From the NCBI GenBank assembly GCA_026874595.1, contig CM049308.1, positions 75,687,124 to 75,751,123 on the forward strand: DNA of 64,000 bases, read 5' to 3'. Of the stretch, positions 12,300 to 27,430 are shown in pieces. This stretch comes from Sipunculus nudus (lineage: Eukaryota; Annelida; Sipuncula; Golfingiida; Sipunculidae). The notes beneath the pieces are model-generated. The model was given only the letters and a program-made list of their open reading frames with translations. It did no database searches and was not told the origin of the DNA. The translations under genes and the position numbers were made by a program. Within the stretch, counting starts at the first letter, position 1, and each line of letters opens with the position of its first letter.

Positions 12300-13435
12300 T
12301 TTTCATGAAATCCCGTTAATCTCGTTTGACAAGAAGCAGTGAGACGTTTTCAGGTTTGTCATGTCAAGCTGGCCAAATGATATAAAATGCCGAAAAGTAG
12401 ACCTGTCTAGCTATAAAAGCCGCTGAGTTATAAGCATTTGCATGAAATCTCGTGTTTTCTCGTTTGACGGGAAATGGTGCGAGCTTTGGCGAGATTTCCA
12501 GTTTTGTCATGTCAGGTTTGTCAAATATTACAAAATGCCGGAAACTAGACCTGTCTAGCTGCCAAAGTCGCCGTGTTATCAGCATTTACGTGAAATCATG
12601 TTTTTTTCTCGCTTGACGAGATATAGTACGAGATTTGGCAAGACGAGCAGTTTTATTATGTCAAGACGGCCAAACGTTACGAAATGGCGAAAACTAGATC
12701 CGTCTAGCTGTAAAAGTCGCCGAGTTATAAGCATTTCCGTGTACTCTCGTGTTTTCTCGTTTGACGAGATATGGTGCAGGATTTGGCCAGTCTTGTAGAT
12801 TTGTCATATCAAACTCTCTAAATGTTATGAAATGGCGAAAACTACATCTGTCTATCTGTAAAAGTCGCCGAGTTATTAGCATTTCTGTGAAATCTCCTTT
12901 TTTATCGTTTGACGAGATATGGTGCGAGATTTGGCCAGTCTTGCAGGTTTGTCATGTCAAGCCGTCCAAATGTTAATGAATGCCAAAAACTAGACCTGTC
13001 TAGCCGTGAAAGTCGCCGACTTATATGCATTTCTGTGAAATCTCGTTTTTCCACATTTGACCAGATATAGTGCGAGATTTCGCCAAGTATCGCAGTTTTA
13101 CTATGTCAAGTTGGCCAAATGTTACCAAATGCCAAAAACTAGACCTGAGTAGCTGTAAAAGTCGCCTAGTTATAAGCATTTTCATGATATCTTGTTTTTT
13201 CTCGCTTGACGAGATATGGTGCGAGATTTGGCCTGATTTCTTTTCTGGCGTGTCAAGCTGGTCATATGTTATGAAATGCCGAAAACTAGACCTGTGTAGC
13301 TGTAAAAGTCGCCGAGTTATAAGCATTTCCGTGAAATCTCGTTTTTTCTCGTTTGACAATAAATCGAGCGAAATTTGACGAGACTTGCAATTGAATGACT
13401 AAGAACCAAGGGGAAGCAGCCTTATGCAAAAAACT
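12300..13435 (+). repeat. tandem satellite, about eight units of ~148 bp
   Basis: The landmark CTCGTTTGACGAG (or a close variant) occurs at 12321, 12459, 12608, 12756, 12904, 13052, 13201 and 13348. Spacing is 138 bp once and then 147-149 bp. A second landmark, around CTAGACCTGTCTAGCTG, recurs with the same period. The CTCGT-TTG-ACGAG landmark is itself a small palindrome. A diverged unit lies near 13790-13900, so the family extends into the larger array. Short open frames on both strands here are satellite frames, not genes. Confidence 0.9.
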
Positions 13436-14221: not shown

Positions 14222-16142
14222 AACTAGACGACCATAGGTCGAACGCTTGCCGGAAATCGGAAGTGAAACACAGACGGACAGACAGAACATATTGTCGGTT
14301 TTCTATTTATGGAATGACTCTCAGGGACATTGCTGAGAATATGTGGCCCGTTGAATTACATATGAAACAAAAGAACAGGCAAGCAGACAAAGCTGACAAC
14401 AAAAGACGAACAGACAGACATAGTGACTTAGTGAGACAAGATTGACACCAGATGACATAACCTAGTGATTGAGAAGATTCAAAGGAAGAAAATGATTTAT
14501 GCAATTTAGATTTATAGTTTTGGAGGTATGGCGAATTTATGATATACTTGGGAGGCTCGACTGTAGCGCCCTCTAGCAGACATATTCCCAAGACGACAAA
14601 TGCGTTTCGTATTATTAGTGTATGACATGAGATGTCCCAGTTTCAAAAGGATTCCTTCAAAGCTGTGGCCTGTAGAATGCTATATGTAAGGCGTAAGAAC
14701 CAGCAAGAAGGCGACTTTGAGGATAACGTACAAACAGATGGACACACTGACAAAGTGACAGAAGATTGAAACCAGATGCCTTAATCAGGTTATGGAGAAG
14801 ACTCAAAGGAAGACAATAAGCTATAGTTTATGTAACTGAGGCTTTGGGTGTAGAGATATGGCCAATACAATGGTATGTGTGTGAGGGGCGTGTGCAGCGC
14901 TCACTAGTGGCCACATCCGGAAAATGAAAAATTTATTTCTAGATATTAGTGTAAGACACAAGATGTAATAGTTTCAAAAGGATTCCGTCAAAACTGTGGC
15001 CTATGGAATGCTATATGTGAGACGCAAGAGCCAACAAGCAGGCGAATTTGAGGACAACTGACAAACAGACGAAAACACTGACAAAGTGACTCAAGATTGA
15101 GTCCAGATGACTACTCCAGGTTATGGAGAAGACTCAAAGGAAGAAAAAAGCTACAGTTTATGTAACTGAGGTTTATAGTTTTGGAGATATTGCCAAAGCA
15201 TGATATGTTGGGAGAGGTACGAGTTCAGCGCCCCCTAGCAGCCATATCCGGAAAATGAAAAATTTGTTTCGAGATATTAGTGTAAGACTTAAGATGTTAT
15301 AGTTTCAAAAGGATTCCGTCAAAACTGTGGCTTGTAGAATGCTATATGTGAGACGCAAGAGCAAGCAGGCGAATTTGAGGACAACTGACAAACAGACAGA
15401 CACACTGACAAAGTGTCACAAAATTGTGACCAGATGACTACACTAGGTTATGGAGAAGACTCAGAGGAAGAAAATAAGCTATGGTTTATGTAAATGAGGC
15501 TTATAATTTTGGAGATATGGCCAAAATATGATATGTTCGGGAGGTTCGCATCCAGCGCCCCCTAGCGGCCCTATTCAAAAAATGAAAAAACTATTTCGAG
15601 ATACTAGTGTAGGACTTATAATATGTCAGTTTCAGAAAGATTCCTGCAATAATGTGGCCTTTGGCGCAAGATGAATGAAATCTCGAAATATCTCTATTCA
15701 CGAGATATTTTACGATATACTGCAAGACTTGTAATAAAATCTTGTAGTACTAGTTGACTGCTACCAGATGCAAAAAACTAGATCACTCTAGCTTTAAAAC
15801 TGACAAAGTTAGAAAAATAAGACCCCTTATTTTCGAATATCATGACTTTTCCCCTAAAATGTGTAACCATGGTTACGGCAAATTTGAGTCAGCTACACAC
15901 CAGATGACAGGCCTTGGAATGGCGATTAAATAAGCTATTGTTGAAGTAGATACGACTAATAGTCACAAAGATATGAAGAAAAAAACGTTTTGAGAAGTTT
16001 TGACGACCTTGACCTTGACCTTTGACCTATTTTAACCAAAAACAATAGGGCACCTAGAAATTATGTTTTTGATCATCCCTGTAAGTTTCAAGGTGATTGT
16101 GGCAAAATTGTGGCCAGGAGAGTGCAGACAAACAAACAGACA
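14222..16142 (+). repeat. 1.93-kb tandem unit A with ~330-bp sub-repeats
   Basis: Aligns to 16143-18060 at an offset of 1921-1929 bp. Inside, a motif around AGTGTAAGAC followed by AGTTTCAAAAGGATTC recurs at 14617, 14949, 15279 and 15606, giving sub-repeats of 327-332 bp. Each sub-repeat also carries a CAGCGCCCCCTAGCGGCCATAT-type block (quoted here only as family consensus in part: GCGCCCCCTAG) and a run of GACAAACAGACGGACACAC type. No coding frame is conserved. Confidence 0.88.
16016..16028 (-). promoter_or_regulatory. DR1 nuclear-receptor-type motif in repeat unit A
   Basis: On the minus strand the sequence is AGGTCAAAGGTCA, two perfect half-sites spaced by 1 bp, followed by TCAAGGTCA, which fits the extended half-site of ERR/SF-1 type receptors. 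DR1 elements are known sites for RXR and HNF4 dimers. Whether any receptor binds this repeat is not shown. Confidence 0.4.
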
Positions 16143-18060
16143 GACTAGACGACCATAGGTCGAACGCTTGCCGGAAATCGGAAGTGAAACACAGACGGAC
16201 AGACAGAACATATTGTCGGTTTTCTATTAATGGAATGACTCTCAGGGACATTGCTGAGAATATGTGGCCTGTAGAATGACATATGAGACAAAAGAACAGG
16301 GAAGCAGACAAAGCTGACAACAAAAGACGAACAGACAGACATACTGACTTTGTGAGACAAGATTGACACCAGATGACTTTACCTAGTTATGGAGAAGATT
16401 CAAAGGAAGAAAATGAGTTATAATTTATGTAATTTAGATTTTTAGTTTTGGAGGTATGGCGAATTAATGATATACATGGGAGGTTCGACTGTAGCGCCCT
16501 CTAGCGGACATTTTCCGAAGACGACAAATGCGTTTCGTATTATTAGTGTATGACATAAGATGTCCCAGTTTCAAAAGGATTCCGTCAAAGCTGTGGCCTG
16601 TAGAATGCTATATGTAAGGCGTAAGAACCAGCAAGAAGGCGACTTTGAGGATAACGTACAAACAGATGGACACACTGACAAAGTGACAGAAGATTGAAAC
16701 CAGATGCCTTAATCAGGTTATGCAGAAGACTCAAAGGAAGAAAATAAGCTTTAGTTTATGTAACTGAGGCTTTGGGTTTAGAGATATGGCCAATACATTG
16801 GTATGTGTGTGAGGGTCGTGTGCAGCGCCCACTAGTGACCATATCCGGAAAATGAAAAATTCGTTTCTAGATATTAGTGTAAGACATAAGGTGTAATAGT
16901 TTCAAAAGGATTCCATCAAAACTTTGGCCTATAGAATGCTATATGTGAGACGCAAGAACCAGCAAGCAGGCGAATTTTAGGACAACTGACAAACAGATGG
17001 ACACACTGACAAAGTGACTCAAGATTGAGTCCAGATGACTACTTCAGGTTATGGAGAAGACTCAAAGGAAGAAAAAAGCTACAGTTTATGTAACTGAGGT
17101 TTATAGTTTTGGAGATATTGCCAAAGCATGATATGTTGGGAGAGGTTCGAGTTCAGCGCCCCCTAGCAGCCATATCCGAAAAATGGAAAATTCGTTTCGA
17201 GATATTAGTGTAAGACTTAAGATGTAATAGTTTCAAAAGGATTCTTTCAAAACTGTGGCCTGTAGAATGCTATATGTGAGACGCAAGAGCAAGCAGGCGA
17301 ATTTGAGGACAACTGACAAACAGACGGACACACTGACAAAGTGACACAAGATTGAGACCAGATGAAATTATCAGTTTATGGAGAAGACTCAGCGGGAAAA
17401 AATAAGCTATAGTTTATGTAATTTAGGCTTTGGGTTTTAGAGATATGGCCAATGTAATGATATGTGTGTGAGGGTCGTGTGCAGCGCCCCCTAGGAGCCA
17501 TATTAAAAAAATGAAAAAACAATTTCGAGATACTAGTGTAGGACTTATGATATGTCAGTTTCAAAAAGATTCCTTCAATAATGTTGCCTTTGACGCAAGA
17601 TGAATGAAATCTCGAAATATCTCTATTCACGAGATATTTTACGAGATACTGCAAGACTTGTAATAAAATCTTGTAGTACTAGTTGAATGCTACCTGATGC
17701 AAAAAACTAGATCACTCTAGCTTTAAAACTGACAAAGTTAGAAAAATAAAATCCCTTATTTTCGAATATCATGACTTTTCCCAAAAAAATTGTAACCATG
17801 GTTACGGCAAATTTGAGTCAGCTACACACCAGATGACAGGCCTTGGAATGACGATTAAAATGAGCTATTGTTGAAGTAGATACGACTAATAGTCACAAAG
17901 ATATGAAGAAAAAAGTTTTGAGAAGTTTTGACGACCTTGACCTTGACCTTTGACCTATATTGACCAAAAACAATAGGCTTCTTGCATTTTTGATTATCTA
18001 TAAAGTGTGTAAGTTTGAAAGTGATTGGTGCAAAATTGAGACCTGTAGAGAGATGACAGA
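16143..18060 (+). repeat. 1.93-kb tandem unit B
   Basis: Second copy of unit A, with the same four-part sub-repeat structure (landmarks at 16545, 16876, 17207 and 17535). Differences from unit A are mainly point substitutions and short indels, so the duplication is much younger than the divergence among the 330-bp sub-repeats. Confidence 0.88.
17944..17956 (-). promoter_or_regulatory. DR1 nuclear-receptor-type motif in repeat unit B
   Basis: The same perfect AGGTCAAAGGTCA as in unit A, kept through the duplication along with the adjacent extended half-site. Confidence 0.4.
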
Positions 18061-23964: not shown

Positions 23965-24562
23965 CCCATGGCCCCCTGCGGCCCCCCCTTGGCTACGACC
24001 CTGAATAATCAGCAGCAGCCCACATCATATATCATTTAAATATGCCATATACAATACCAATGTAAGTTTCTTATTACCTAGTTTATTAATAAAACTATAA
24101 AAAAATTAATATTAATTATTACATTAATAATATAATATTCTTTAAATATTAATAAATATATATTATATGTGAACTATACATAACCATGTTATCATGAAAC
24201 AGCCACCGTGCTGAATCTCATATTCTCTTAAAAAATCCTTGAAACAAAAGTGTATTATGGTGAGCAAAAATACCTTTCAATATAATTAATTGTTCATCGG
24301 TGTTACATAAGTTTCGTCAACAAAGTTTCGTCAAATCCTCTCATAACCGATTGAGTTAAGTTGCTTATAACAGAAAAATAGGCAAAACTTTACCTAATGG
24401 CGAAGATAAAACAACCAGACACGGGTGAACCATAACCTTTGTTATGGAGGAAATTAACGTAATTGCCGCCTCGGCACTTTATTACTTTAGGTAACGAAGT
24501 CACATTGCGACGGGGGATGTAGTTGTACCAACACAAACAAACAGACCGAGAATGTTTGAAAT

Positions 24563-24740
24563 CATATAACCCCAATCTACATTGACAGAGTGTCAGAGTA
24601 AAATCATCACACGAGCTTTTACTCCAGAGCCCACCAAGTTGTCTTTCGACTTTGCGGCCATGACTGTTCGTCGTGAATCTTTAATTAGACTTGATCCAGG
24701 GCAGAGAGTAATAAAAGCGATTCAGTCAATGAATGAATAA
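24563..24740 (+). promoter_or_regulatory. possible TATA promoter and short leader ORF
   Basis: CATATAACC near 24563 could act as a TATA box. About 95 bp further on, GCGGCCATGA places an ATG in strong context (24659), opening a 26-codon frame (MTVRRESLIRLDPGQR...). A weak donor GTAATA follows codon 16. Splicing from there to the acceptor at 25590 would not join the main frame of the downstream gene, so this could be its untranslated leader exon with an upstream ORF. This is inference. Confidence 0.25.
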
Positions 24741-25590
24741 TGTAATCAGCACCTACTACATTTGTGATATAAATGGCAGTTTAAATCAATAATTTTAGAG
24801 TTTTATGAATGATAATCTGTCTTTTGAGGAAAAATGTAAATACTAGAATTGAACCTGACAAAGATAGTGATTTGGAGATTTCCAGTTTCATTTGTTCAGG
24901 ATTTAAAATGCGGTTCCAGAGTAAAATATAATGGCGACTTTACTCTTAAAGTCTTGATTATTTTGTAAGTTTTAGTCATTAACAAGTGTTTGATGTAAAA
25001 TCTTTTGAATATGTATGTATGTAAAGGCATTGCAAGGGCGGCTGCATGACTTTTTCCCCCAAGGTTCATGGGGTCTAAGGTGCTCAGATACACACACACC
25101 CACACACATACCAAATAATGGTATATGATAATTTAAGTTGCAGATTTTAAGGATAGTTCAAGCAAATTCTTAGTCCAGAACACAATCTGAGGTAAGGAAA
25201 ATAGGAAAGATATCCATACAGATACAATCGGTTGGTTAACCTTTGTGTGGGTTGAAGATTGATGTTGACCTACACAGTCCGAGTTTACCAGAGGGTACAC
25301 TGTCAGTACCAAATCTAAAGGGAAAGCATAAGGTGCTCTACTCGAGGAATGCATTGGTACCTAAAAGAATGAATACTTGCCTTTATGACACCTGTAATGA
25401 TTTTCATGAAGAGATGAAGGCAGTCCTGAGCACCAAAACAGCCACATTACCGAGTACCTCGTGTTCATCCACTAAAAAAAATAAATCCGTGATAAAATAT
25501 GGAACTTTTTTTACACTGGTGGTCTTCTTGACAAATTCACATTGAATTTGATGTTAAACAGATTAGACTAAAATAATGATTTTTTTACAG

Positions 25591-26776
25591 GTATCCTTGT
25601 CGGCGAGGCCGACCATGACAGGATGTTTATTGGATGGTCATGCTGCGAAAGTATACGAATAATAAGATGGACGTATCAATCCTGGTTGACTCATACGACG
25701 CGGAAGCGGATGCCCACGTGGTGTGTCCTATCCAAGAAGACGAGGAACCAAAACCTCTGCATCCGGCCCTCAGACCGGAAATGTGGAAAATCACGCCCTC
25801 CCAGGAATACAGAGACGCACAGCAAATGTACAGGAACAGAATGAAACGCCAAACGGCAGTGGTTGTGGCCCCTGGCGAAAAATATGCACAAGATTCTGGC
25901 GGGTTTAGGCATAAACCTAATTCTCGCCCATTAACTCCTTCCGGTCCCACATTCTCGCGAGATTTATCCTCCTCCGGTAGACGTAGGATAAGTGACGTCA
26001 CATTCGCAGACAGTATGGAGCAGGAATATCCTAAATGCCGTAGCGTGGATTCTGATTATGAGTCAGGATTTATATCTGGTGGTAATAGCAGGCCAATGTC
26101 TAGCAGGTCAACTGGTTTACAAACTTTCGGCAGCTCATCAAATTTGTCCTATTTTTCTGGTCAAATGACATACGGTAGCAGTCACGTTGGTGATGAGGTT
26201 ACCTTTGACGACTCATACGCGTCTAGTAGCCAGTTAAAGATGTATCCTTCCGATTTCACTGTTGCTGATCAACGGAAGTTTCATCGGCCGTCTGCTTACT
26301 TACGGGGGAGACAAGATCCCGCTAAAGTCACAAAACGAAAGCAGTCCCACAAGGTGCCAAACGCCCTCTGTCCGCAGGATCGGTACACAAGAGGCGCTCA
26401 GAAAACTGAGAAATCTGTAAAAGTAATACAGGGTCAAAATATGACTAAACCTCGGTGGTGCCCCCCTCCCGGACAGGCCCCTCCTGTCAAGAAAAAAGAC
26501 GCCGCCACGGAATGTGAAATAATCAAAATGGTGGATAAATTAGACATAGGAGTTCAATGTTCACCTGAGATGCGTACCGTAGGAACACAGCTTCCCAGGA
26601 AAACTAAAGTCGCGTCAACACAGACTTCTATAAAGACGCGTAACTGCAGGGTGCAGGTAGGCCATAAGACTTACAGTACTGCTGAAACTCAGTGTGGGCC
26701 TCCGCCTCATCGTAACGTCGCCACGATGACCCAGGTCAAGGTCGTCTATCCAGAGTGCATGACCTATCTCGAATAA
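25591..26776 (+). CDS. unrecognised 380-residue Ser-rich basic protein with C-terminal TQT-type repeat array
   Basis: A good acceptor (TTTTTTACAG) ends at 25590. The longest frame opens at 25634 and stops at 26776 (TAA), with an in-frame TGA at 25616 just upstream, so translation starts in this exon. The ATG at 25667 (residue 12; A at -3, G at +4) has the best Kozak context and may be the real start, giving 369 residues. The protein has no signal peptide or membrane segment. Residues 130-200 are Ser/Gly/Tyr rich (SVDSDYESGFISGG region) and residues 215-290 are basic. Residues 289-372 form an 11-12-residue repeat with cores TEC(292), VQC(307), TQL(318), TQT(329), VQV(340), TQC(352) and TMT(364). 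The TQT core matches the established LC8 (DYNLL) docking consensus; the others match it loosely. A short upstream ORF from 25615 overlaps the start. No family is recognised. Confidence 0.8.
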
Positions 26777-27031
26777 GCAGCGCCATCTATACTGCCTTCG
26801 TAAAATGGATACTGGTGCTTAACTCGATGACGTAATAAGTGTATATAGTAAGTATAGCGAACACTGGATCATTGGCAGGTTGTTGTTATTAAACGCCGAA
26901 TCTTTCTTATATGTAAATCTAACAAACTAACTCAGCGTGGTCTGATTTTTGGGGGTATGAGCAAAGAATATATGACGAACAACGAGAAGGGCATTTTTCT
27001 CATGCATGTCTAAGTTATTACTTTAATGTGC

Positions 27032-27037
27032 AATAAA
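27032..27037 (+). terminator. polyadenylation signal of the 25.6-kb gene
   Basis: AATAAA 256 bp after the stop codon at 26776, in the plus orientation, followed by T-rich sequence. It is the first canonical signal downstream. Confidence 0.6.
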
Positions 27038-27247
27038 TCTTATTGTATTTAAACCCAGTTGTTATTTATTTAGATGATCCTTAAACATTCAGGTGACGCT
27101 CAGTAAAGCCAGGATATAAGGCGTTTTAATGCCAGATGTTAGTAAAATAATTAATTTTTTGTAAATTTTAATTAAGGGCAAAATGAGCTTTTGATTAAAC
27201 ATATTATGAATTTTTCTCCATCCTGAAAATATAGGAAACATAATAAA

Positions 27248-27430
27248 TATTCTTTTCATGCTGCAAAACTAAGAAATATATAACAAATATTCTCTCACTG
27301 CTCGACAAGTATGAAACATAAATATTCTCTCCATGCCGCACAACTAAGAAACATATAACAGATATTCTCTCCATGCTGCACAACTAAGAAACATATAACA
27401 ACTATTCTCTCCATGCTACAAACCTGCAAC
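27248..27430 (+). repeat. 40-bp minisatellite, five copies
   Basis: The phrase TATTCTCTCCATGC starts at 27248, 27288, 27323, 27363 and 27403: period 40 bp, with one unit shortened by 5 bp. Each unit also carries CTAAGAAACATATAACA. The last three units are nearly identical. Confidence 0.9.

Follow-up and report, generated by a model that had tools for sequence, protein, structure and literature searches.

The window analyzed here, a stretch of 64,000 nucleotides (64 kb) from the annelid Sipunculus nudus, belongs to an assembly of 153 contigs that totals 1.43 Gb, and the features of interest within it are collected in Table 1. They center on a frame at positions 25634-26776 that is intact and appears protein-coding. 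From stop to stop it spans 385 codons, as opposed to a maximum of 191 in 60 first-order Markov simulations, and its period-3 power is 3.02, a value to be set against a maximum of 2.41 among 304 stretches that start outside positions 24400-26800. The stronger Kozak context is that of the second in-frame ATG (position 25667, residue 12), use of which would shorten the protein to 369 aa. Since the in-frame stop that ends the frame upstream (25616-25618) comes shortly after the acceptor-like TTTTTTTACAG, one exon may hold the entire coding part, perhaps with a spliced 5' leader. Rfam gave no match at the gathering threshold, and a scan for bacterial promoters and terminators was disregarded as having no bearing on an animal genome. 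Elsewhere in the window, tandem arrays were seen at 14405-15660 and 16263-17589 (331-bp unit, ~4 copies each, apparently the same unit), at 12351-13389 (148-bp unit, ~7 copies), and immediately 3' of the gene at 27240-27417 (~40-bp unit).

Table 1. Features of the locus, with positions counted from the first nucleotide of the window
Feature	Position	Strand	Basis
Acceptor-like TTTTTTTACAG preceding the frame, possible splice acceptor	25580..25590	+	putative; no transcript
Coding frame, 380 aa from first ATG	25634..26776	+	ORF and translation; start choice putative
N-terminal part, residues 12-91	25667..25906	+	family searches, AlphaFold model
Ser-rich middle, residues 85-205, probably disordered	25886..26248	+	composition, FoldIndex
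Array of TQT-like units, residues 289-372	26498..26749	+	translation, shuffles
Core TEC, residue 292, lacks anchor Q, probably no site	26507..26515	+	translation, scoring
Core VQC, residue 307 (LDIGVQCS), top-scoring	26552..26560	+	translation, scoring
Core TQL, residue 318 (RTVGTQLP), favorable flanks, unusual Leu at +1	26585..26593	+	scoring
Core TQT, residue 329 (KVASTQTS), sole canonical anchor	26618..26626	+	translation, scoring
Core VQV, residue 340 (RNCRVQVG), scores poorly	26651..26659	+	translation, scoring
Core TQC, residue 352 (STAETQCG), marginal	26687..26695	+	translation, scoring
Core TMT, residue 364 (RNVATMTQ), like the weak Drosophila ASCIZ TMT site	26723..26731	+	
TQV366, scores poorly, overlaps TMT364	26729-26737	+	scoring
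ATTAAA, second polyadenylation-type signal	26888		putative
AATAAA, polyadenylation-type signal	27032..27037	+	putative

Searches of Pfam and PDB with the whole protein and with its pieces returned no match above the cut-off; the piece covering the array came back empty from both. The best Pfam match, TCL1_MTCP1 at residues 32-66 (25727-25831; E = 0.088 with the whole protein and 0.0092 with an 80-residue N-terminal piece), lies below the 25-bit cut-off and is probably due to chance. The S. nudus genome yielded the protein itself and no paralogue. There were likewise no homologues in the viral_contigs and genome_contigs collections, which cover viruses and prokaryotes and have no bearing on animals.

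On the basis of FoldIndex and a single-sequence AlphaFold model, the protein is probably disordered. FoldIndex is negative for 285 of its 380 residues and close to zero for the blocks 1-80 and 281-380, and the model has a mean pLDDT of 40.3, with values of 29-37 in the ten-residue blocks of residues 281-380. It is most confident (blocks at pLDDT 75-81) for two strands within residues 2-17, which are uncertain because they depend on the doubtful first ATG; a short helix at residues 57-71 is predicted with low confidence, and no confident coiled coil was seen in the protein. The chain outside the array had been described as disordered and Ser-rich. Serine does make up 23.1% of residues 85-205 and the FoldIndex values mostly agree, but the remaining blocks contain only 3.6-4.8% Ser and block 1-80 is neutral; the description is thus partly right.

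The C-terminal array had been read in the earlier note as seven regularly spaced, TQT-like cores forming a candidate multivalent partner of LC8 (DYNLL). Their positions (residues 292, 307, 318, 329, 340, 352, and 364) and spacings (15, 11, 11, 11, 12, and 12) proved exact. Their likeness to TQT is partial: five of the seven (VQC, TQL, TQT, VQV, and TQC) carry the central Q, but TEC292 and TMT364 do not, and since TMT364 overlaps TQV366, the last core has two registers. Canonical TQT accounts for a single core, a count that is not unusual (shuffle P = 0.12). For broader motif classes, which were defined after the array had been seen, the picture is different. Matches to [TV]Q[TVCL] number six in the protein, TQV366 included, and all six fall within residues 289-380; the shuffle means are 0.73 for the whole protein and 0.49 for the segment, and six was reached in 0 of 20,000 shuffles in either case. 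The wider class [TVI]Q[TVCIL], equally post hoc, gave P = 0.0003 in whole-protein shuffles. Compared with random placement, the regularity of the spacing has a P value of 0.00018 for the seven cores and of 0.0008 for the six Q-centered cores ending in TQV366. Under an independent-residue model, such clusters are expected 0.0001 (general database frequencies) to 0.003 (the protein's own composition) times per 10-million-residue proteome, and the true expectation is higher because real proteomes contain repeats. Recent tandem duplication is unsupported as the origin of the array, given that the repeat scan reported no tandem repeat over it and that the units share pairwise DNA identities of just 0.19-0.47. 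Beyond their cores, the units resemble each other weakly (flank mean 0.03 versus -0.74; P = 0.0004).

An LC8 dimer offers two grooves, which lie at the dimer interface. The S. nudus genome contains at least one full-length LC8 frame (a 92-aa ORF), whose product is identical to the chain of PDB 4qh7 at 85 of 90 aligned residues and retains all seven of the pocket and groove residues that we checked, as these are named in PMC3078936. A second, divergent Dynein_light-type exon gave a weaker match (73 bits; locus L003, ORF 1495-1719 on the minus strand). With spacings of 11-15, linkers of 3-7 residues are left between the predicted 8-residue motifs, and 3-9 residues separate the motifs in the solved two-site LC8 complexes described in PMC12797016; the array spacings of 11-12 are within the range for neighboring LC8 dimers in published complexes. 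A close parallel is QT2-QT3 of Drosophila ASCIZ, with a pitch of 11 residues and a linker of 3 (PMC5963919, PMC10046861). The anchor of QT3 is TMT, with a reported Kd of 36 uM in a longer chain (PMC10046861), and binding of the isolated TMT peptide went undetected at 30 uM LC8 (PMC5963919). According to PMC10046861, the short linkers of ASCIZ lead to heterogeneous filling with LC8.

The single cores were scored with a site matrix of our own (not LC8Pred) built from 28 published binding peptides: 18 "Y" rows of PMC6607443 (19 minus one duplicate, MUC4; its 4 "weak" rows were excluded), 7 ASCIZ peptides, gephyrin, Bmf, and a phage-selected consensus. The ASCIZ TMT peptide is counted as a binder, though its binding as a peptide is too weak to measure. 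As non-binders, 33 of the 43 such rows in the two tables of PMC6607443 were used with the full matrix and 32 in the flank test described below, the 10 dropped rows being duplicates or devoid of a TQT-like anchor. Left-out binders were separated from the 33 non-binders with an AUC of 0.81. VQC307 obtained the highest score, 14.5, which exceeds 30/33 non-binders and 17/28 left-out binders, followed by TQL318 with 12.5 (28/33 and 11/28), TQC352 with 9.9 (22/33 and 5/28), TQT329 with 7.9 (18/33 and 3/28), and TMT364 with 6.4 (16/33 and 1/28). TEC292 scored 2.1 (6/33 and 0/28), TQV366 -3.1 (1/33 and 0/28), and VQV340 -3.5, which is below all 33 non-binders and beats none of the 28 left-out binders. 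Scoring of the cores, which the earlier note had called for, therefore puts VQC307 and TQL318 within the range of binders, leaves TQC352, TQT329, and TMT364 marginal, and speaks against VQV340, TQV366, and TEC292. Outside the array, the stretch RSTGLQTF (central Q at residue 163) scores 6.1, about the same as TMT364. In residues 281-380, five 8-mers reach 4 bits or more, compared with a mean of 0.65 in 3,000 shuffles (P = 0.0003).

These scores can be set beside what is published on individual anchors. Non-TQT motifs are common among LC8 partners: by the figures of PMC5746249, TQT is contained in 37 of 67 known motifs and missing from 30. The same paper found LC8 motifs to be conserved, as a rule, inside a taxonomic group but in many cases not outside it. 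The VQC anchor is found in the LC8-binding peptide of gephyrin, EDKGVQCE (PMC12057147), and both VQC307 and TQL318 satisfy all five of the rules of PMC6607443 that we checked. In the tables of that paper, the one TQL peptide (KY) is a non-binder, as are both TQC peptides, though the latter have other defects. The flanks of TQT329 are disfavored at two positions, -4 (Val) and -3 (Ala), and a hydrophobic residue at -4 was unseen among binders by the LC8Pred authors (PMC6607443). Across the seven units, position -4 is non-hydrophobic in six, -5 is basic in five, and -3 is small in four. A good matrix score is weak proof by itself, because 7 of the 19 matrix-predicted peptides bound in PMC6607443.

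We further scored the flanks alone, i.e., positions -5 to -2 and +2, which played no role in finding the cores. These positions discriminate left-out binders from the 32 non-binders with an AUC of 0.77. The seven units have a mean flank score of 0.34, compared with -7.24 for residues drawn at random from the same segment, and none of 10,000 draws reached 0.34. Random registers averaged -6.61 (P = 0.0002), ten shifted registers gave means of -9.3 to -2.8, and of 120 permutations of the columns two attained the true score, one of them being the true order itself. Omitting the ASCIZ and gephyrin peptides did not abolish the difference (1.30 versus -6.86 at random; 0/10,000). The mean of 0.34 is higher than that of published non-binders (-2.09) but lower than that of published binders (2.84). 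It is driven by VQC307 (7.8) and TQL318 (7.5), with poor scores for TQT329 (-4.4) and VQV340 (-6.0). Collectively, the units look LC8-like position by position, and most of the individual predicted sites seem weak. We consider these register-specific flanks the best evidence for LC8. Their likeness could instead stem from an old internal duplication rather than from selection for LC8, since the unit flanks are alike; even so, the origin would be an LC8-like unit.

Given the clean register, the LC8-like flanks, the lack of a fold match, and a near-identical LC8 in the same genome, we favor, with somewhat better than even confidence, the reading that the protein is a client that binds LC8 multivalently, through sites of which most are weak. 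This would preserve the multivalent partner proposed in the earlier note but not its seven working sites. In our judgment two to five are more likely, because TEC292 has no Q, VQV340 scores below the non-binders, TQT329 has unfavorable flanks, TQC352 is marginal, and the precedent for TQL is negative. The C-terminal ~85 residues would then serve as a disordered, multivalent docking strip, in which each usable core, as a short beta-strand, pairs with a groove in the interface of an LC8 dimer. With two such grooves on every dimer, stacked LC8 dimers would hold two parallel chains of the protein together like a zipper. One moderate site, VQC307, aided by TQL318, might seed the stack, and the weaker neighbors TQT329, TQC352, TMT364, and perhaps VQV340 would be filled through avidity. 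A pitch of 11-12 residues implies linkers of 3-4 residues that would bring adjacent LC8 dimers into contact, and by analogy with QT2-QT3 of Drosophila ASCIZ we expect a stiff, unevenly filled rod that displays the Ser-rich middle and the N-terminal part as a dimer. LC8 binding, its stoichiometry, the dimerization, and a cellular role are all features that we infer for this protein.

If it is an LC8 client, the protein would be a fresh example of an already known type, and one close comparison is ASCIZ/ATMIN, whose LC8 motifs, seven in the fly and eleven in humans, are described as lying in a disordered C-terminal region. Drosophila ASCIZ also shares a TMT anchor and one 11-residue pitch (QT2-QT3) with the S. 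nudus protein, and its sites are individually weak, as is predicted for most of those in the array. As described, it differs in having four N-terminal zinc fingers, TQT in six of its seven anchors, and uneven linkers, whereas the anchors of the S. nudus protein are mostly non-TQT and its pitch is even. Orthology with ASCIZ is unsupported: no C2H2 zinc-finger pattern was found in the six frames of the 64-kb window, and an in-frame stop precedes the frame. In yeast Nup159, a row of five sites for LC8 (Dyn2) gives rise to stacked LC8 dimers (PMC5963919, PMC10046861); judged by its description, it differs in that the LC8 sites precede a predicted coiled coil (PMC3995210). Other LC8 clients are RSP3, Chica, Bassoon, GKAP, and gephyrin, several of them with more than one motif (PMC5963919). 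Of these, RSP3 carries TQT-like motifs (PMC12399478) and GKAP has two non-canonical LC8 sites (PMC12797016), and the group as described differs from the present array in having fewer verified sites. A search of the LC8 literature, made by words rather than by sequence, found no recognizable description of the present protein. A bolder form of the LC8 reading is that the array is an undescribed ladder, with a density and an evenness of pitch that few others would match, in which nearly all sites are sub-threshold and non-TQT and bind through avidity only, on a chain that has no known relative; this we find rather doubtful.

Features of the array that LC8 accounts for less well leave room for other explanations. 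Several cores are poor as LC8 sites, yet core and pitch are regular, and no relative or annotation in Pfam, PDB, the organism's own genome, or the viral and prokaryotic collections names a partner. The units might therefore be short linear motifs for another periodic partner that favors [TV]Q[TVC], such as a beta-augmenting domain or a filament lattice. This seems unlikely to us, as the flanks fit the preferences of LC8 in the correct register. The same flanks, along with VQC307 and VQV340 in register and the 11-12 pitch, are left unexplained if the segment is viewed as an S/TQ cluster and a phosphorylation target of kinases of the ATM/ATR type, a reading that fits formally but more poorly and that we hold to be improbable. 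The formal fit is as follows. Four TQ (318, 329, 352, and 366) occur within 50 residues and satisfy both definitions given in PMC4705472 (three S/TQ in 100 residues and three in 50), neither of which, as published, includes valine-Q cores or a regular pitch. Four TQ are unusual for residues 289-380 (segment P = 0.0024; best 92-residue shuffled stretch, P = 0.007) but not over the whole protein (P = 0.089), and the authors of PMC4705472 caution that an individual cluster may be a stochastic occurrence.

A small ordered repeat, e.g., a beta-structure of 11-12 residue units, is in our estimate slightly less probable again. Short strands are predicted at residues 305-309 and 338-342, and the weak similarity of the units outside their cores is in keeping with such a repeat. 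Against it stand the low pLDDT over residues 281-380, in a single-sequence model that cannot exclude a fold, and the empty Pfam and PDB searches of the array piece; the FoldIndex of about zero over this block is neutral. The least probable reading is that of chance, or of a neutral, degenerate repeat with no binding partner. The core pattern was indeed picked post hoc, but the shuffle and spacing tests argue against chance, and the silent repeat scan and the low DNA identity among units argue against such a repeat.

Multivalent LC8 binding thus remains the best available reading of the array. LC8 motifs are difficult to predict, especially where they are weak and rely on multivalency, and if the array is indeed a ladder of such sites, single-motif predictors would tend to miss clients of its kind. 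With sites that are mostly poor singly and with a register and flanks that fit collectively, the array would lend itself naturally to testing how avidity drives LC8 assembly. If LC8 turned out not to be bound, a partner would still have to be sought for the regular [TV]Q array. If the LC8 reading is true, it would assign a function to a protein of S. nudus that otherwise lacks annotation.
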